DNA of 39,178 bases from a virus, in the IMG/VR virus record IMGVR_UViG_3300002161_000006, positions 1 through 39,178 of that record; one strand, written 5' to 3'. Under the pieces are notes generated by a model, which did no database searches, was not told the origin of the DNA, and was given only the letters and a program-made list of their open reading frames with translations. How positions within the stretch are numbered: the stretch's first letter is position 1; the number at the start of each line of letters is the position of its first letter. The translations under genes were made by a program, and so were the position numbers. Positions 14,806 through 36,257 of this stretch are shown piece after piece.

Positions 14806-15030
14806 ATGGCCGAAAACACAGATGGTGAGTACTTTACAGACGTTCCGAGAACTTCTATCCCTAATGCAGATACCTGGGATACCCTATCTGCAAATCAACT
14901 AATTGAAACAAAAAATACGCTGATGAGTCAATTATTTGCATTTCAGAATAGACCTGAGATTGCAAAAACATTGCAAAAAGGAATTGCGAGGCTTGATGCG
15001 CTTATTTCTTTGCGGTCAGTCGGGTCTTAA
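14806..15030 (+). CDS. Conserved late hypothetical protein (74 aa), plus strand
   Basis: MAENTDGEYFTDVPRTS, then LSANQLIETKNTLMSQLFAF and KTLQKGIARLDALISLRS. The QLIE-KN-LM-Q-FAFQ...P-IAK-LQ-GIARLD-LI pattern looks like a small conserved protein of T4-like phages with no assigned role. GGGAG lies six bases before the ATG and a CATAAATA late promoter upstream. Its last 29 bases overlap convergently the end of clpP, so opposite transcripts would collide here. Confidence 0.78.
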   Translation: MAENTDGEYFTDVPRTSIPNADTWDTLSANQLIETKNTLMSQLFAFQNRPEIAKTLQKGIARLDALISLRSVGS

Positions 15031-15622
15031 TAGGTAGTTGGACTTCAGCGAAATCAACAACTCTATCAACTAGACCGAACTTTTTAAGTTCGATAGGTGT
15101 AAGGTACCTATCAGACGGTGAAAATAAAACGTCACGTATTTGACGCTCATTCATTGCTGAGTGTCTAAGGAAGTGGCGAATAAAGCGTTGCTCCAGCATT
15201 TTATAAGAAGTTTGTGTGGCAAGTAGTTCGTGGTGCTTGCCGCTAAAATAACCAGCAAATTGATGTGCCATAACTTCTGTATTTTTAGTGATTGCACGAT
15301 GGCCTTTTGCACCGCCGGAAAGTAGTAGCACCCCCATTGACATAATATTCCCAACTCCAACCGTAGCAATTGGAATTCTAGAAGTATCCATCAAGTCAAT
15401 GATAGCAAATCCTTCTGCACATTCACCACCCACTGTATTCAGAATAAGAGTGAGGTGAGAACGTTCTCTCTGCAGAATGTTTGATTTAAGAATAAAATCA
15501 CACGCTGCATATGATTTCTCTTCATCAACTTCACCAAAAAATAAATGAACACCCAAAGCATCTAAACTAATGGTGTCGTATTGATTTCCTGATTGGTCTT
15601 GGTCTTCAGGTTTCTTCTGCAT
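15002..15622 (-). CDS. clpP: ClpP-like serine protease (206 aa)
   Basis: The catalytic triad can be placed at S95 (GNIMSMG), H120 (MAHQFAG) and D171 (SPSDRYLTP), the same order and nearly the same numbering as in E. coli ClpP (S97, H122, D171). The strand LILNTVGGECAEGFAIIDLM and the C-terminal LTPIELKKFGLVDRV are typical. Phage ClpP-like proteins may act as head-maturation proteases or on regulators; no fused capsid or portal gene is next to it here. ATG at 15620-15622 with AGAGGG upstream and a TGTAAATA late promoter. The first 28 residues are copied in the chimeric gene 15717-16121. Confidence 0.9.
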   Translation of the reverse strand: MQKKPEDQDQSGNQYDTISLDALGVHLFFGEVDEEKSYAACDFILKSNILQRERSHLTLILNTVGGECAEGFAIIDLMDTSRIPIATVGVGNIMSMGVLLLSGGAKGHRAITKNTEVMAHQFAGYFSGKHHELLATQTSYKMLEQRFIRHFLRHSAMNERQIRDVLFSPSDRYLTPIELKKFGLVDRVVDFAEVQLPIKTRLTAKK

Positions 15623-15657
15623 CTAATATCCCTCTGCGGGGTAACCTTACCGATTTC

Positions 15658-15665
15658 TATTTACA
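15658..15665 (-). promoter_or_regulatory. Late promoter TGTAAATA
   Basis: Seven of eight matches to TATAAATA on the minus strand, about 36 bases before the clpP start. Confidence 0.7.
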
Positions 15666-15692
15666 GACAAAACAACCTCGTTTTGGGAGGGT

Positions 15693-15713
15693 GTATTTCA
15701 TAATATGAAATAC
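15693..15713 (-). terminator. Hairpin behind the chimeric gene
   Basis: GTATTTCA (15693-15700), TAATA loop, TGAAATAC (15706-15713), three bases after the stop of 15717-16121. AT-rich and without a run of U directly after it, so it may be a weak terminator or an mRNA-end stem. Confidence 0.5.
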
Positions 15714-15716
15714 AGG

Positions 15717-16121
15717 TCATTCAATGACTTCCAGCCCCCAATCAACTTCCAAGCAATTTTTTGAATACCACTCCATCCAGTCGATTTCCTGACCTCGGAA
15801 AGCCCTCATTATCTGTGAAAACAGAGGTGTTTTTGCGTATTTTTGAGCCATCTGCTTAACATCCATGTCAGCCGCGGTGCCCGAAATAATTGCAATAATA
15901 ACCTGCTCACGAGCGTCTTCAATCACCTCGCTGATGGTGCGCTGAACTAATTCAATCGGCTTAGTTGATTTTCCAACCATTACAAAAGCAGCCCTGAGGT
16001 CGTCAGCAGTTCCAGCAGCAACTGCGCGTGCAATGTCACCGAAGAAGAGGTGAACGCCCAGTGAGTTGAGCGATATGTCGTCGTACGTCAGAGCTTCCTG
16101 ATCCTGCGATCTACGGGTCAT
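15717..16121 (-). CDS. Chimera: ClpP N-terminus fused to RNA-ligase (Rnl1) C-terminal domain (134 aa)
   Basis: Residues 3-28 (SQDQEALTYDDISLNSLGVH plus LFFG) align with ClpP 5-30; with the next two residues, 16 of 26 positions are identical. From residue 29 to the end the protein aligns with RNA ligase 266-369 with one 2-residue gap. Matching blocks are D-[IV]-A-R, DDL---F--V-K---P, then LF--IMRA--G-EI---EWY-K--LE, with 17 of 34 identical in the last block. No ClpP catalytic residue and no ligase nucleotidyltransferase motif remain. In T4 Rnl1 the C-terminal domain is the tRNA-specific part, so this may be a stand-alone RNA-binding protein; this is inference. ATG at 16119-16121, GGAG 7-8 bases upstream, and GCTAAATA in late-promoter position. 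Confidence 0.85.
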   Translation of the reverse strand: MTRRSQDQEALTYDDISLNSLGVHLFFGDIARAVAAGTADDLRAAFVMVGKSTKPIELVQRTISEVIEDAREQVIIAIISGTAADMDVKQMAQKYAKTPLFSQIMRAFRGQEIDWMEWYSKNCLEVDWGLEVIE

Positions 16122-16153
16122 CTGTGTCTCCAGCAGAGCTGAACGAGCTGAAG

Positions 16154-16161
16154 TATTTAGC
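16154..16161 (-). promoter_or_regulatory. Late promoter-like GCTAAATA
   Basis: Minus strand, 33 bases before the chimera start, nearly the same distance as the clpP late promoter from clpP (36), as expected if promoter and gene start were duplicated together. Confidence 0.55.
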
Positions 16162-16266
16162 GAACCGGGCGAGGGGTGCTGAATTTTACCTGGTGAAATG
16201 CAGGTTAGAGGATCTCGACGACCTACGCGTGAAGGTGATAGTGTGATGAAGTATGTGTCTTGAGTT

Positions 16267-16274
16267 CATAAATA
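16267..16274 (+). promoter_or_regulatory. Late promoter CATAAATA (plus)
   Basis: Plus strand, 21 bases before the ATG of the HNH gene; identical to the site before 14806-15030. Confidence 0.75.
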
Positions 16275-16294
16275 CACTTCAAATGGAGAACATA

Positions 16295-17155
16295 ATGAAC
16301 TTTAAAACGTGGTATGAACAGCACCGCAGCAATCCCAACTGGGCAATTAACCTAAAAAAGCTTGATGAACCGCTATACAAAAAAGTTGCTTCATCCGTTG
16401 GCGATCGTTGGGCAGAGAAGGCCTATACCTTCATCAATCAGCTTTCTTCAAGACCTGTATGCCGCTGCGGTGCAGAGAGACCGTGGTATGGTCGTAGCTA
16501 TGCGCTGAGATGTAGTGTGCGGTGCTCAAATATTGAGACGGCTTCTTTTCGTGCGACAACTCTCAAGGCTAGAAGCGAAGAACAGAAAAAGAAAGTGGCC
16601 GCCAAGGCGCGTGCAACAAGCATTGAAAGATATGGCGAAGATTATGCAACTGCCCGGGCAAAAAAGCGATCAGCAAGCACTATCTCGCGTACTGAAAATG
16701 CTAGGAAGAAATCAATGCTTATTCGCTATGGAGTTTCAAATCCCGCGCAACTTGAAGAGGCACAGCAAAAGCGCAAATTAACCTACTCAAAGAGAACTGA
16801 TGAACAGCGAGAGGCAACAAGACTAAAGAACTTTGCAACAAGATGCGCTAGAGGCATATCATTGCCTAATGATCATCCCTCAATCTTTAAGTCAAAGAAA
16901 TCCTACACTCGTCGGGTGAGATACCTAACAAATGTTTCTGTGAAGCAGCATGGGCTTTTTTCAAGCAGATCACGAGAGCAACATGTAGATCACATCTTCT
17001 CTGTGCTAGATGGCTACAGGCATCATGTCTCACCAGAAGTATTAGCACATCCTGCAAACCTCAGGCTGCTGTGCGCAAGCAATAACAGCCGAAAAAACTC
17101 ACGCTCAGATATCACCATCGATGAGCTGTTCGCCCGCATCGAGCACTGCAAGTGA
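16295..17155 (+). CDS. HNH homing-type endonuclease (286 aa)
   Basis: ATG at 16295 (MNFKTWYEQHRSNPNWAINL) has GGAG at normal distance; earlier in-frame starts precede the ribosome-binding site. A four-cysteine zinc knuckle lies at C56, C58, C73, C77. A basic central region contains RYGVSNPAQ, a motif of phage HNH proteins with repeated DNA-binding modules. The HNH core is at 230-267: HVDHIFSVLDGY, AHPANLRLL, NNSRKN. Free-standing HNH proteins of this kind cut sites in related phages and spread by repair. It runs against all its neighbours, has its own late promoter, and its last 51 bases overlap the end of the RNA-ligase gene antisense. Its position between RNA ligase and the chimera suggests insertion there. 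Confidence 0.88.
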   Translation: MNFKTWYEQHRSNPNWAINLKKLDEPLYKKVASSVGDRWAEKAYTFINQLSSRPVCRCGAERPWYGRSYALRCSVRCSNIETASFRATTLKARSEEQKKKVAAKARATSIERYGEDYATARAKKRSASTISRTENARKKSMLIRYGVSNPAQLEEAQQKRKLTYSKRTDEQREATRLKNFATRCARGISLPNDHPSIFKSKKSYTRRVRYLTNVSVKQHGLFSSRSREQHVDHIFSVLDGYRHHVSPEVLAHPANLRLLCASNNSRKNSRSDITIDELFARIEHCK

Positions 17156-18244
17156 AAACTTGTGCTCGAGAACGTGCTTGTTATACCACTCGCGCAAGTT
17201 AATCTCCTTACCGTCCATCGCTCGCATGATCAATCCAAACAGGCGATGACCTTTTGCTGCTAGTGCTGCCTCCTTCTTTGTTTTACCAACAAGCTTTGCG
17301 TGCTCTGCCTCTACTTCAGCTTGTAGCTCTGCCAAATCTGCAAGGACAATGTTATTGATGCGTCGAACTGGCGTTGGATCCTTATCAACCAGTGCAAACT
17401 GGCCAATCAAGTCATCGATCTTATCATCAAGGGCCAAGCGTGCTACATCACGCTCACGTAGGAATACAATGGTCCTGTGCAGGTCGCAGTACCACTTCGT
17501 CTTCAACTTAACCATGTCGCCACTCTCAAACTGGATTACCCAGCCCTCAAAGTTCTGTGTAGTAAGTGCGGCGCTCTTTAGTTTCTCCCAGGAAACATTT
17601 CCACCCTCAAGAAAGTCAGACATGAAGTTCTTAACAAGCGGGAACGGGCAGCCACGAGCAGAAAGTTCTGCCTCAGTGAGGTATCTTCCTGAATTATTCT
17701 CACGAATATGTAGTAGCGTAAGTTCATCTGAATTATATCGCAACACTATTGGAAAACGTGGAGAAGTTACCTCAAAGGTTGGAGTCAAGTTTTGATTGAG
17801 AATGTCTTGAATCCATTCCTTGCACCCTGGAGTAGATGCGATGGAATCGGCAAGTGTCGCTTCATTTGTATGAAATGACTTCTTTGTCTTGAACTTGAAA
17901 CCTCCACCTACAAGTGGAACTGGTACCACCATAGAGCCGTCCCGCTTCTCCATGATGCGCGTTACCTTAGACCAGTTAATGTTTTCAGGCAGAGTGCTTT
18001 CACGCTCGCCAACATTGAAGAACTTATGCAGGTGCCGAGAAACTATTTTTCCATCTTTGCCAAAGGTAATACCTCGGCACTCACGCTCAATACTCTCATT
18101 CTCACCAGAAAATACATCATCGTCCTGCAGCATGTAGCAGATAACAGTTAGACCGAATTCTTCATCGGCTTTTACGCGTATCTGGGGGACGTGCTGAATA
18201 AACTTGGTGACATCTGAAATGTCACAAATAACTGGAAAAGGCAT
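17105..18244 (-). CDS. rnlA: T4 Rnl1-type RNA ligase (379 aa)
   Basis: Motif I is KRDGS with the nucleotidyl lysine K100 (T4 Rnl1: K99). RECRGITF at 54-61 is the usual upstream block, EVTSPRF is near motif IIIa, EGWVIQF (233-239) is motif IV and VKLKTKWY (245-252) motif V. Total length 379 is close to 374 of T4 Rnl1. The C-terminal part from about 260 is helical and corresponds to the tRNA-directed domain of Rnl1, which repairs tRNA cut by host anticodon nucleases together with Pnkp. It is downstream of a small membrane-protein gene and has no late promoter directly in front. The C-terminal 104 residues have a second copy in 15717-16121. Confidence 0.93.
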   Translation of the reverse strand: MPFPVICDISDVTKFIQHVPQIRVKADEEFGLTVICYMLQDDDVFSGENESIERECRGITFGKDGKIVSRHLHKFFNVGERESTLPENINWSKVTRIMEKRDGSMVVPVPLVGGGFKFKTKKSFHTNEATLADSIASTPGCKEWIQDILNQNLTPTFEVTSPRFPIVLRYNSDELTLLHIRENNSGRYLTEAELSARGCPFPLVKNFMSDFLEGGNVSWEKLKSAALTTQNFEGWVIQFESGDMVKLKTKWYCDLHRTIVFLRERDVARLALDDKIDDLIGQFALVDKDPTPVRRINNIVLADLAELQAEVEAEHAKLVGKTKKEAALAAKGHRLFGLIMRAMDGKEINLREWYNKHVLEHKFSLAVLDAGEQLIDGDI

Positions 18245-31001: not shown

Positions 31002-31937
31002 TTATGCAGACATTTTAAAACTAATTGCAGGGTGAGGATCGTAGCCTTCAAGGACGAAGTCTGCCATCTTGAAGGAATCGATATCACCTGAACTGTTGTT
31101 AATTACGAGGTTTGGTAAGGCACGAGGATTACGTTCTAACTGCTCCTCAACACCATTAATATGGTCCTTATAGATGTGAACGTCTCCCATATTAATGATA
31201 AGTTCTGCAGGGGTATAGCCACATACACGTGCAAGCATATGTGTTAGAAGCGCGTACGACGCAATGTTAAATGGTAGCCCCAGCGCAGCATCTACAGAGC
31301 GTTGTGTCATCATACAACTTAGCATCTTGCCCTTTGAGACGTAGAACTGAGCAAACATATGGCAAGGAGGAAGTGCCATTTGATCCAATTCTCCAACATT
31401 AAGGGCGCTAAGAATGATGCGCCGGTCAGTTGGGTTGTTCTTTAGTTTATTAACCACAATGGAGAGTTGATCAACTTCTTCCTCAATAACTTTTGCACCA
31501 TAGTACGCTGTGCCACCTTCTGGAAAGTGTAGAAAATCGTTATACCCGTCGACAGTATGCTTCTTCCATTTTCTCCATTGAACACCGTAAATGCGGCCAA
31601 GGTCTCCAGGAAATTTCGGCTTGTATAAAGACCCTGACGTCCCTTCTGCATTTGGTGACCAGATTGTCTTCTTGTTCTCATCGCGCGTGCCGTGCAAAAT
31701 TTCTGCCAGCCGCCGCTCATCACCACTGCCCTCAATGAACCATAGAAGTTCAGAAAGAATAGACTTGAATGCCATCTTCTTTGTAGTGACTAAAGGGAAA
31801 CCCTGAGTAAGGTCAATGTTCATTGAATGACCAAAACTAGAGAATGTACCTGTGCCAGTGCGGTCAGCCCTTTCCTCTCCTCTGTCTATGAGATGGTACA
31901 GAAGATCTAGATAATCTGCTTCAAAGGTATATGACAT
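31002..31937 (-). CDS. thyA: Thymidylate synthase ThyA-type (311 aa)
   Basis: Methylates dUMP to dTMP with methylene-tetrahydrofolate. The nucleophile is C192 in LPPCHMFAQF; DRTGTGTFS (25-33) binds phosphate, TDRRIILSALN (170-180) and QRSVDAALGLPFNIASYALL (start of the dUMP-binding block, 212-231) are standard, and GDVHIYKDH (251-259) too. The C-terminus HPAISFKMSA keeps the flexible tail. T4 td has 286 residues; this protein has extra residues near 85-115, like many bacterial enzymes. No intron is seen in the frame. Start ATG 31935-31937 with AGGAG. It supplies dTMP for phage DNA. Confidence 0.97.
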   Translation of the reverse strand: MSYTFEADYLDLLYHLIDRGEERADRTGTGTFSSFGHSMNIDLTQGFPLVTTKKMAFKSILSELLWFIEGSGDERRLAEILHGTRDENKKTIWSPNAEGTSGSLYKPKFPGDLGRIYGVQWRKWKKHTVDGYNDFLHFPEGGTAYYGAKVIEEEVDQLSIVVNKLKNNPTDRRIILSALNVGELDQMALPPCHMFAQFYVSKGKMLSCMMTQRSVDAALGLPFNIASYALLTHMLARVCGYTPAELIINMGDVHIYKDHINGVEEQLERNPRALPNLVINNSSGDIDSFKMADFVLEGYDPHPAISFKMSA

Positions 31938-31965
31938 TATTTTCTCCTATACTTTACTTATCATT

Positions 31966-32874
31966 CTAGGGCGAAGAATTATTCAGGTCGCTGCTGTCTT
32001 GTACTACCATTTCGTAAAGAGTTTTTACCTTTTTGGGGTCAAGGTTTTTTGCTGAAGTGAATACCGGTTCAATCTTAACGTACAGATCTCCACGCAGGCC
32101 AGGCTTCTTTAGGTCGTGTATCCAGTTGAAGTAGCCCTTGCCCTTTACCTTCAGGCGCTGGTTGATTGAAAATCCCGAAGGCACCCGCACCTGAAGTTTC
32201 TCGCTGTTAAAGTCAGACACAAGGATCCAAGCACCCAAAATAATGTCAAGTGCATCGACCTGCATAGTGGTCTCAATATCGCCTGTCTCAATTACGACAA
32301 CAGCTCGACCATTCATTGTCTCATGGTGCCAACCGCATTCAGATGCCGTTTTAACCCTAAAGTCAGCATCGTGAATTCTTGTAATGATGTTTGCCGAAAG
32401 ATTTTCAGTTACATCAATCTGTGTCCTATACCCGTCAGGAGTTCCTGGTGGTACGTGTATGGTTTTTGAGCCGCCTTCAGGCAGTTGAACATCTATGGAA
32501 AAACCATCCGCTGCCTGCTTTAGTGTAACACCAGCCTGGAACTCCGTTACGTGCTTTACACCATGAAAGGGATTAAATCCTCCAAAGCCAGCCCTCCGCA
32601 TCTGTTCAAACATCTGCTCAATGTCTGGCTGTCCTCGGAAATTTCCTTGCGACCCTTGTGGATCTCCGCCACGGTCAAAGATACTCCGCCTACGGACATC
32701 AGAAAGCGTTTCATACGCCTCTTTTATTTCTTTAAATTTTTCTTCTGCTTCCTTCTTTTCAGCTTCAGCAACCTTATCAGGGTGGTACTTGCTTGCTAGC
32801 CGCTTGTACGCCTTTTTTATTTCCTCATCGGTGGCATTTCGTGCCACACCAAGGATTTCATAGTAATTTTTCAC
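31966..32874 (-). CDS. dnaJ: J-domain co-chaperone, DnaJ/CbpA-like (302 aa), GTG start
   Basis: J-domain at 1-66: [20 protein letters not shown] and the HPD triplet at 31-33, ending with the YETLSD helix. Next comes a short G/F region (about 72-103: FGGFNPFHG), no zinc-finger cysteines, and a C-terminal substrate-binding part ([15 protein letters not shown], then [34 protein letters not shown]). The layout is CbpA-like (type II). It should stimulate host DnaK ATPase and may direct it to phage proteins. GTG at 32872-32874 is the start since it gives the full J-domain, though no clear Shine-Dalgarno is present; it lies 8 bases after the topoisomerase gene. Confidence 0.93.
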
Positions 32875-32882
32875 AGGGAGAC

Positions 32883-34259
32883 TTAAAAGGAAAGAGCCTT
32901 CAGTTCACGACGATACATCTCAACAGCAGTGTCTTTCATAATCTTATCCATCTCATTCTTGAGGTCCTGTAGTTTCTTATTTAGTTCCTCAATTCTGTCA
33001 CGTGTAAGAGACCAGATCTGCATTGAAAGAAGACGATCGTAATCATCAAACTTGTTCTCAAGAAGAATAGCGATAAGGTCCTTCTTTGAGGTATCACGAA
33101 AGACCTTCACGTTTGCGAGGTAGAAGCGGATGAAGCGGATAACCTCGCTTGCATACCGAATTTGCTCAGTAAGATCAGCGATGATGTGCTGCCGGCGCGC
33201 CTCCATCATTTGAACCCGCCACTTCACGAAGATGTCAATAATTTCTTCAGGGCTACCGTAGCGCGTAAGAATGCCCTCAGTTGACCAGCACGTAATGTTC
33301 TCTGTATCCCTGCTTATTAGACCAAACTTCTTGTGAAGTTCTTCAGCATCCATTGCTGTAGTGCTACGAGGAACGCTGATGATGAACTCAAAGCCTTGTT
33401 CAGTTGAACGATCCTCATAGTCCTTGATGATCTCGGCGTCCTCAAGTTTATGCAGCCGCTCCTTGTATTGGTCAAGGTATGTTCCTACCGGAAGTTCAGT
33501 TATCTTGATGGTCGTGCTGTTTACAATCTCCATCTTGCCAGTAATTACCACCTGACCAGTTTCAGAATTGCGCGAAACATCTCCAGAAAACCCGTTGAAC
33601 CAAGGCGTAAGAGTACCAGGCTTTAGTTTCTTTCCAGCAAGAGCAGAAAGACATGCATTGCGAACTTCATCAGGGTTGTAATTCATGATGAAGCAAGCAT
33701 GACCAGTACCCGTGCCCTGAGCACCATTCACGAGCACCATCGGAAGAAGAGGAGCATAGGTCTTTGGTTCAATCTTTTCACCATCAACCTCGTGATGCTC
33801 GAGAATTGCATCATCAGCCTTAGGGAAAAGAGCACGAAACCAAGGAGACAACTTCGTTTCGATGTAGCGATGCGCAGCAGATTCAGCAGTAAGGCGGGAA
33901 CCAAACTGACCTTCTGGGATGAAGAGGTTAAGGTTGTTAGAGCCTGCATAGTTGTTCGCCATTCCAACAATCGTTTGCGCCAGGCTTCCAGTGCCGTGGT
34001 GATAGTCAGTGGCTGCGGCTACCTGAGCAGCCAGGCGCTCAACTTGAATAAGACCCGCATTTTCACCGCGGATAAGCGTGCCGTAGATTGCCTTCCGCTG
34101 AGATGGCTTTAGACCATCAGTTAGCATGGGAATAGATCGCACACCGTCATACAGCGAGAACTCCTTGAATGCAGTGTCGAAAAAGTGACGCATTGGAATG
34201 CGACGGGCGCTCAATTGATACTGATTTGGTGCGGTGCTCTTTTGTGCCATAGTTTTCAT
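32883..34259 (-). CDS. 52: Phage DNA topoisomerase II medium subunit (gp52-type, 458 aa)
   Basis: DNA-breaking subunit, the counterpart of GyrA/ParC in T4 (gp52, 442 aa). The N-terminus [35 protein letters not shown] and the catalytic tyrosine Y86 in [19 protein letters not shown] are all seen. [35 protein letters not shown] and PWFNGFSG are typical too, and the C-terminal part is a coiled coil ([19 protein letters not shown]). It works with the 34296-36257 product. The start may be ATG 34257-34259 or 34248-34250; neither has a clear Shine-Dalgarno, and an 11-bp tandem repeat takes the leader place. Confidence 0.95.
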
Positions 34260-34281
34260 GAATAGTTGGTGAATAGTTGGC
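34260..34281. repeat. 11-bp tandem repeat before the gp52-type gene
   Basis: GAATAGTTGGT (34260-34270) followed by GAATAGTTGGC (34271-34281), directly upstream of the ATG at 34257-34259 where a ribosome-binding site would be expected. Confidence 0.85.
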
Positions 34282-34295
34282 TGAATGATATTATA

Positions 34296-36257
34296 TCACA
34301 AAGACTCAAGGATGTAATCCTCAAAGTTCTTTGCAGGAGTTTCTAGCCACTTCTTTCGGTCATTTGCACGTTCGGGATTAAATGCTAAGTCAACTGCCTG
34401 CTTGTCTTCCTCTCCCTCACATGTAATTTGGAAGAGGTATTGATCTAGATGTTCCATATATGGAATAAAGTCAGGAGTCTTCGTGGTACCCAAACCCTTG
34501 AAGAATCTATGTGACCAACCCTTCGTAGAAGCGCCTGGCCCATTTGCCCATTCCTTGAACTCGCGCTCTGTGAAGAATTCCAAAACGGTCTTGTCCTTCA
34601 GATATACCTTCACTGTAGGAGTACGGAGGATGTGGACGAAGCCCAGGCGGAAGAGCTCCGGCCAGAAGGTGTCGAACACGTTCATCAGCAGACCGGCGAT
34701 GTGGGCACCGTCGACGTCAGCGTCGGTTGCGAAGGCGACCTTACCGAAGTTGAGCTCGGTGAGGGACTTGACTGGCTCGCCGATCTTCAGGCCGATGAGC
34801 GTCAGGATCTTCTGGATCTCGTTCGGCTCCGTCTTCTTGCCTTCCTTCTCGCGCTCCTTCTTCTTGTCGAGGCCGAGGACCCGACCGATGTCCTTCTCAC
34901 GGACGTTGAGCGGCTTGCCCTTGAGCGGGAAGGTACCAATGTACGGGTTCTTGCCGCGAGCCGCGAAGAGGGACTTGGCAGCGGAGTCACCCTCGGCAAG
35001 GAAGAGAATGCACTTGTGCCGCTGGATGCGCTCTTGAGCATCTGCAAACTTATCAATGCGCCTGAAATTTACCTTGTCAGTTTCTTTATTGACCTTACGA
35101 AGATCGGCAAGGATTGCGGCTTGCTCCTTTGCTTGAACCCAATCAAGAATAGACTTGATGATTTCGGTCTTTACAAGTTTGTTGATGAACTTGTCTGGAA
35201 CTGTCCAAGATGTTTTCCATTCAGAAGAAGGAGAAATCATATTCTCCTTGGTCTGAGATGAGAAGCGCGGACGATTAATGCTCGCGCTAATATAGATCCG
35301 CATATGCCCACGAATATCACCGGGGGATACCTTAACCTTATGCCGCTTTTCGATGTGGGCGCGCAGCGAATCCACAATCTGATTAATTGCGTAGGTAACG
35401 TGGGTGCCACCTTGAAAAGTCTCAACTGAATTTACGAAACTGATCTGCTCAAAACCATCAGACTTCGTAATACCGACTTTCCAGTCGGGCGTTTCGTCAT
35501 ACACGTATTCGGGATCATACAGCGCGATGTAGTCATCAAAACCACGCGTCATGATCCTATCGCCATTGATATAGAACTTAACGCTTGGGTTTGTAGCCGC
35601 AGCATCAACAACCTTCTTGACAATTCGAAGGCGATGATCTTCATCAAGCCCCTTTAACTTGAAGAACTCGTAGTCAGGAGTAAAGGTGATCTTTGTGAAA
35701 TGCTTGTCGTGATCTCTTACCTTCGGTTCAGAGCGCTTGCGCATTCCTTCAGTAAATTCCTGCTTGAACAACTTCTTGCCATCGGCGCTCTCAATCTTGA
35801 AACTGGTTGAAAGCACGTTGGTCAGTGTAGAGCCTACACCGTTAGTGCCAATCAACTGCTGATCTTCTTCATCATTGAAGTTTGAACCAGCACGGAGATT
35901 TGAAAACACGGTTTCGGCAACGTACCTGCCAGTTTGCGGGTGAATTTCTACTGGAATACCACGACCATTATCCAGAACTGAAATTGAACCATCATCAGAG
36001 AGTTCAACCCTGATGCTGTCCATTACATCAGAAGCCCGGCGGCTTTCATCAATGGCATTGTCAAGGATTTCAGAGAAGATCTTAATGAATGCTGGGATAG
36101 TTGTAATTTCCCGCTGCATCATCTTCTTTGAAGCGGTATCATAGACCCACTCAGTGGATGTCTGGAGGGAGGTTGAACCCGCGTACATACCAGTTCTTTT
36201 CCTGATGTGCTCAATTTCATCCAACACCTGGTACGTTTGTGCAATTTGCTTTGACAT
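34296..36257 (-). CDS. 39: Phage DNA topoisomerase II large subunit, unsplit (gp39+gp60 type, 653 aa)
   Basis: ATPase subunit (GyrB/ParE counterpart). GHKL motifs: E63 and N67 in EILDNAID, DNGRGIP at 96-102, and GTNGVGSTLTNVLS at 137-150. The TOPRIM domain has E422 in LAEGDSAAKS and D512/D514/D516 in DADVDGAH. In T4 this protein is split into gp39 (516 aa) and gp60; here it is one chain. The minus-strand bases 34621-35040, coding about residues 406-546 (TOPRIM), are far richer in GC than the rest of the gene. ATG at 36255-36257 has only a weak GAAGTGA leader. A promoter and a terminator lie upstream. Confidence 0.96.
   Translation of the reverse strand: MSKQIAQTYQVLDEIEHIRKRTGMYAGSTSLQTSTEWVYDTASKKMMQREITTIPAFIKIFSEILDNAIDESRRASDVMDSIRVELSDDGSISVLDNGRGIPVEIHPQTGRYVAETVFSNLRAGSNFNDEEDQQLIGTNGVGSTLTNVLSTSFKIESADGKKLFKQEFTEGMRKRSEPKVRDHDKHFTKITFTPDYEFFKLKGLDEDHRLRIVKKVVDAAATNPSVKFYINGDRIMTRGFDDYIALYDPEYVYDETPDWKVGITKSDGFEQISFVNSVETFQGGTHVTYAINQIVDSLRAHIEKRHKVKVSPGDIRGHMRIYISASINRPRFSSQTKENMISPSSEWKTSWTVPDKFINKLVKTEIIKSILDWVQAKEQAAILADLRKVNKETDKVNFRRIDKFADAQERIQRHKCILFLAEGDSAAKSLFAARGKNPYIGTFPLKGKPLNVREKDIGRVLGLDKKKEREKEGKKTEPNEIQKILTLIGLKIGEPVKSLTELNFGKVAFATDADVDGAHIAGLLMNVFDTFWPELFRLGFVHILRTPTVKVYLKDKTVLEFFTEREFKEWANGPGASTKGWSHRFFKGLGTTKTPDFIPYMEHLDQYLFQITCEGEEDKQAVDLAFNPERANDRKKWLETPAKNFEDYILESL
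34621..35040. other. GC-rich mosaic patch inside the topoisomerase gene
   Basis: By hand count 256 of 420 bases (61%) are G or C, against about 42% in 35041-35160 and about 48% in 34501-34620. In the patch nearly all codons end in C or G (CTC, GTC, ATC, GAC, AAG, GGC). The frame is unbroken and the protein stays canonical, so this is a replacement, not an insertion. It matches the TOPRIM domain. Confidence 0.85.

Follow-up and report, generated by a model that had tools for sequence, protein, structure and literature searches.

A clpP-RNA ligase chimera beside a putative homing endonuclease in a metagenomic phage, a locus that probably records aberrant homing

The combination of a foreign tail, an endonuclease gene and a displaced native tail has been documented for the fungal mitochondrial genes atp6, atp9, cox2 and nad3 (PMC3630166). 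In atp6 of Allomyces macrogynus and in atp6, atp9, cox2 and nad3 of Glomus, a resident core is fused to a foreign C-terminus, an endonuclease open reading frame (ORF) adjoins it, and the native C-terminus is displaced downstream, where it can be recognised by its better match to close relatives (PMC3630166). Insertion of endonuclease ORFs into important phage genes is exemplified by rnlA of Acinetobacter phage 133 and by mobE/mobA in T4-like phages, and one-sided homology repair with micro-homology joints has been documented for homing in phage T4 (PMC2988022). The locus described here appears to have the layout of the fungal cases, with a probably foreign C-terminus on the ligase core. Different from those cases, however, it is found in a phage, its HNH-like ORF lies on the opposite strand, and its displaced tail, far from being a dead fragment, continues the reading frame of a clpP start that has a leader of its own. 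Phage 133 and our phage have a related endonuclease ORF and the same target gene; the ligase of phage 133 is split near its start, whereas ours is whole, with an apparently changed tail and a spare, probably native one.

The window, i.e., the whole stretch of DNA analysed, comprises 39,178 nucleotides (positions 1 to 39,178 of the IMG/VR record IMGVR_UViG_3300002161_000006). An earlier note on this DNA had described a gene composed of a ClpP start and the C-terminal domain (CTD) of RNA ligase 1 (Rnl1), and this description was borne out by shuffle-tested alignments, a ClpP-family motif and the predicted fold. The 134-aa chimera ORF was confirmed at 15717-16121 on the minus strand (Table 1). 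Local alignment of its start with ClpP scored 87, with 16 of 25 residues identical, and its residues 29-134 scored 112 against residues 266-369 of the window's own ligase; the best scores among 1000 shuffles were 54 and 53, respectively. No cross-match of either half to the other parent was found in the ClpP and Rnl alignments. The motif YD-ISL-SLG-H-[LF]FG[ED][IV] of the chimera start is common to eight related phage ClpPs and is confined to the chimera and clpP within the 78-kb record. A generic common leader, which the earlier note had named as a possible objection, was ruled out by this family specificity and by the motif's two occurrences in the record. By their alignment, residues 1-28 of the chimera are a ClpP start of the type found in this phage family.

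Table 1. Positions of the features of the rnl-chimera-clpP locus in the window
Feature	Position	Strand	Basis
rnl catalytic (nucleotidyltransferase) core, codons 1-257, native	17474..18244	-	discriminating columns; groups with L001 and relatives
rnl CTD, codons 258-379, probably foreign	17105..17473	-	discriminating columns; tree position
Putative HNH-type homing endonuclease, 300 aa	16253..17155	+	phrog matches; alternative ATG at 16295
clpP-type leader before chimera, TAAATA at 16154-16159, GGAG ribosome-binding site	16122..16252	-	aligns with L001 clpP leader
Chimera codons 1-28, clpP-gene start	16038..16121	-	alignment to ClpP; GC3 68%
clpP/rnl joint, GTGA in both parents (micro-homology)	16036..16039	-	sequence inspection
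Chimera codons 29-134 and stop, most likely native, displaced Rnl1 CTD	15717..16037	-	identity to relatives' ligase CTDs; T4 Rnl1 CTD fold
Resident clpP leader, TAAATA at 15658-15663	15623..15716	-	
clpP, resident, 206 aa	15002..15622	-	Pfam CLP_protease 3.5e-26; 74% to L001 clpP

The remainder of the chimera is homologous to the CTDs of phage RNA ligases, with 50 and 48% identity to those of the related phages L001 and L002 (E 1e-30). Its AlphaFold2 model is confidently all-helical from residue 27, with pLDDT >90 over residues 31-120 and a disordered start. As the earlier note had proposed to check, the predicted fold superposes on the CTD of T4 Rnl1: VIA-align placed chimera residues 23-132 on residues 253-374 of 5tt6 with a Z of 9.4, which helical folds may reach by chance (rmsd 3.6, 106 aligned); the runner-up had a Z of 3.2. 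Despite that caveat the assignment was accepted, because the gap to the next row, the coverage of the full domain and the sequence homology agree. Foldseek alone listed no significant match for the chimera, T4 Rnl1 included. Pfam PF20819 matched the chimera at 17.4 bits (E 0.0056), below the curated cut-off of 27, a profile of 15 domains matched T4 Rnl1 at E 0.05, and the Pfam search gave no PF20819 row for the full-length window ligase. The likeness to the T4 RNA ligase 1 CTD (PF20819; PDB 5tt6, 2c5u) consists of a weak sequence profile match and a full-domain fold match, and in the predicted structure residues 29-134 are a complete T4 Rnl1-type CTD. Different from T4 Rnl1, whose second domain has been described as an RNA-binding domain (PMC11494293), the chimera is free-standing, has a ClpP-derived disordered start and lacks a catalytic domain. 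The KxDG nucleotidyltransferase core, present as KRDG at residues 100-103 of the window rnl, is absent from it. Moreover, it contains only those ClpP residues that precede the head domain, predicted to be disordered, and not the ClpP fold with the catalytic Ser-His-Asp. Neither ligation nor proteolysis is expected of its product.

A putative endonuclease ORF, whose last 51 bases overlap the 3' end of rnl, fills the 0.9 kb that separates rnl from the chimera. The earlier note mentioned neither this ORF nor the pattern of divergence, which is at odds with a simple internal duplication. The ORF matched phrog_3339, a homing endonuclease profile (5e-8), and phrog_23051 (2.5e-10); with Pfam HNH its E was 0.53, and its assignment is one of distant similarity only. 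In Acinetobacter phage 133, its best annotated relative divides rnlA into rnlA-A and rnlA-B, and relatives that are inserted into and split genes were found in three phages (rnlA, nrdA and a gp18-like gene). As far as this distant similarity goes, the ORF is a member of a family that invades genes and has inserted into rnl on at least one other occasion. The split rnlA of phage 133 (L100, 2550-4627) is an independent invasion of the same gene. In Klebsiella phage KP13-7 (L104, 1985-3494), the relative lies beside an nrdA fragment and is annotated as a hypothetical protein only; the same annotation is carried by the relatives amid gp18-like tail sheath fragments of Campylobacter phage CP21 (L106, 796-4166). 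In Serratia phage BF, the relative sits in a tRNA cluster.

Comparison of the two ligase tails with those of other phages points to the chimera as the carrier of the native one. In addition to the values for L001 and L002, the identities of the chimera CTD to the ligase CTDs of L004, L003 and L006 were 47, 44 and 41%, and it was only 29% identical to the CTD of the window's own ligase. That ligase was 61-56% identical to those of L001-L004 in its core, the fold of which is that of T4 Rnl1, but just 41-33% identical in its CTD. At columns that discriminate related from more distant ligases, the related type was found at 27 of 32 positions in the window core, 8 of 25 in the window CTD and 17 of 22 in the chimera (core versus CTD, Fisher 9e-5); for individual related ligases, the fraction at the CTD columns ranged from 0.57 to 1.0. 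The window CTD was often of neither type, so its source lineage is unsampled. In a 25-sequence tree, the chimera CTD fell inside a clade with 14 relatives (support 96/94) and the window CTD outside, and a sister relation of the two was rejected (AU p 0.029, and 0.031 with a smaller set); these trees, on which the term "foreign" rests, have about 120 columns and place the window CTD on a long branch. The ligase core fell in the related clade, and a tree placing it just outside was not rejected (p 0.31). Of 24 conserved CTD columns, the chimera kept 22, with two conservative misses, and the window ligase tail 17. The displaced tail is closer to the relatives than the inserted one by identities, columns and trees, and because of these three lines the chimera tail is regarded as the original and the ligase tail as the divergent newcomer. 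Most likely, then, the tail in the chimera is the native, displaced one, whereas that of the intact ligase is foreign and arrived together with the endonuclease; fast divergence of the ligase tail in place is a less likely alternative to its replacement.

The start of the chimera differs from the resident clpP as well. The chimera leader aligned with the clpP leader of L001 with a score of 66 (best of 500 shuffles, 52.5) and with the resident clpP leader with a score of only 32, matched by 41 of 500 shuffles. The third-position G+C was 68% in the clpP part of the chimera and 31% in the resident clpP (Fisher 2e-4). Because both the leader alignment and the codon composition depart from the resident gene, they suggest that the chimera's clpP start also came from outside. 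Late-promoter-like sites before the chimera and clpP, placed by the earlier note 33 and 36 bases upstream, were present as TAAATA cores, although these begin 38 and 41 bases before the start codons, presumably through another counting base. The leader, ribosome-binding site, TAAATA element, start codon and frame of the chimera are all intact. The closest relative, L001, represents the empty site, in which rnl is followed by 260 bases and then clpP, with the endonuclease and the chimera absent. A proline-rich 58-aa ORF lies between rnl and clpP of L001 (7140-7316); the window's resident copy is without it, and the chimera stop directly adjoins TGACCTG, a conserved part of the clpP leader. The order rnl then clpP is a recurrent pairing, seen in the window (clpP at 15002-15622), L001, L094, L095, L098, L099 and L103, and in L003 and L004 clpP is a few kb off on the other strand.

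The locus probably records an aberrant homing event, by which a foreign tail and the endonuclease came in and the native tail was displaced. An endonuclease would have cut resident rnl near the core/CTD boundary, or a repair tract would have reached it. The broken core end would have been repaired by copying a co-infecting phage through its rnl tail, endonuclease gene, gap and clpP start. Copying would have ended early, at codon 28 of the donor clpP, and the new strand would have been joined via the 4-base GTGA micro-homology, by itself a weak indication, to the other resident end, the native CTD. The outcome would be a working ligase with a foreign CTD, the endonuclease gene, and the native CTD in frame behind a clpP start, which would have given the displaced tail a start codon, a ribosome-binding site and a late-promoter-like site. 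We infer both the break site and the order within a single event. It counts against the homing model that a duplication could have occurred independently and before the endonuclease came in. If true, the model would describe a phage in which an endonuclease swapped an enzyme's substrate-binding domain and left the old domain as a ready-made new gene; the joint, still readable, would link selfish gene homing to domain swapping and chimeric gene birth.

On balance, the chimera is somewhat more likely than not to be, at present, a by-product that the invasion left. Its 134-aa protein is expected to be expressed late and, according to the model, to fold as a helical Rnl1 CTD with a disordered 20-residue tail. 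The C-terminal domain of T4 Rnl1 is its tRNA-specific part. The main alternative, a tentative one that can coexist with a homing origin, is that selection has kept the free-standing domain as an RNA-binding protein, which would act in trans and either assist or oppose the ligase; for instance, it is possible that it keeps the native tRNA specificity lost by the tail swap. This would agree with an ORF that is intact over the in-frame joint, conserved domain columns retained (22/24) within the range of working ligases, a complete predicted fold, and the presence of a promoter-like site and a ribosome-binding site. Split phage genes can work in trans, as does nrdA of Aeh1 (PMC2988022). In a codon model, a neutral chimera branch was strongly rejected (lnL -4250.8 versus -4237.2 for one ratio). 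From the two-ratio model, in which the branch was unbounded (omega 0.006, length 33), only this rejection of an omega of 1 and a split-branch bound were used. However, the branch also covers the period prior to the event, in which the domain still belonged to a ligase. The bound limits neutral evolution of the chimera CTD to about 0.2 changes per codon, or about 7% neutral drift per base, and it is a rough one, as the amount of neutral change allowed is larger for L001 and L003 than for the chimera. Youth explains the intactness as well as selection does, because the clpP leader part is also undecayed, as expected of a simply young gene. Moreover, the stand-alone domain occurs in no second phage: all 14 relatives found are full-length ligases. 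The earlier note had read the base-level divergence as a sign that the gene is old and has been kept. That divergence reflects two ligase lineages and not the time since the event; given the limit on neutral drift, the chimera CTD is either young or constrained. More speculatively still, and improbably in our view, the phage may have a two-part system, in which a ligase that has acquired its tail and its substrate range is accompanied by a late, stand-alone native RNA-binding tail that supplies the old specificity in trans, widening tRNA repair against host anticodon nucleases.

For the origin of the locus, the earlier note had proposed a tandem duplication of rnl and clpP followed by a deletion. 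That origin needs sister CTDs, but the two are 29% identical and their sister relation is rejected at p 0.03; because the chimera CTD groups with the ligases of other phages instead, tandem duplication is unsupported. Moreover, the two steps are unnecessary, since one illegitimate joint yields the same gene order. A one-step internal tandem duplication, from rnl codon 266 to clpP codon 28, with fast divergence of the ligase tail thereafter and later insertion of the endonuclease in the gap, would fit the gene order exactly, would need a single event and would agree with the long branch of the window CTD. It is nevertheless unlikely, as the same rejected sister relation bears on it, the deviant copy is the one retained by the ligase, where constraint would be expected (17/24 versus 22/24 conserved columns), and the chimera start departs from the resident clpP in its leader and in its codon composition. 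Joining of two phage strains of one sample during assembly is conceivable for a metagenomic virus contig (78,389 bases) but very improbable, as no word of at least 11 bases that spans the joint of clpP and rnl is repeated in the window and synteny with L001 holds on both sides.

Searches of viral contigs, bacterial and archaeal genomes and annotated phages found full ligases only and no second chimera, an absence that is weak evidence; the exact clpP/rnl junction had no second instance either. No relatives of the endonuclease were found in viral contigs, and the searches yielded neither a close strain of this phage nor a donor phage that has this endonuclease or a ligase tail of close similarity; a profile of the window CTD and distant CTDs was too variable for searching. 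Among the other features of the window (1-39178), late-promoter-like TAAATA hexamers occur 17 times on the coding (minus) strand and 7 times on the plus strand. Finally, similar to T4-like phages, the window encodes thymidylate synthase and two type II topoisomerase subunits at 31005-36257.
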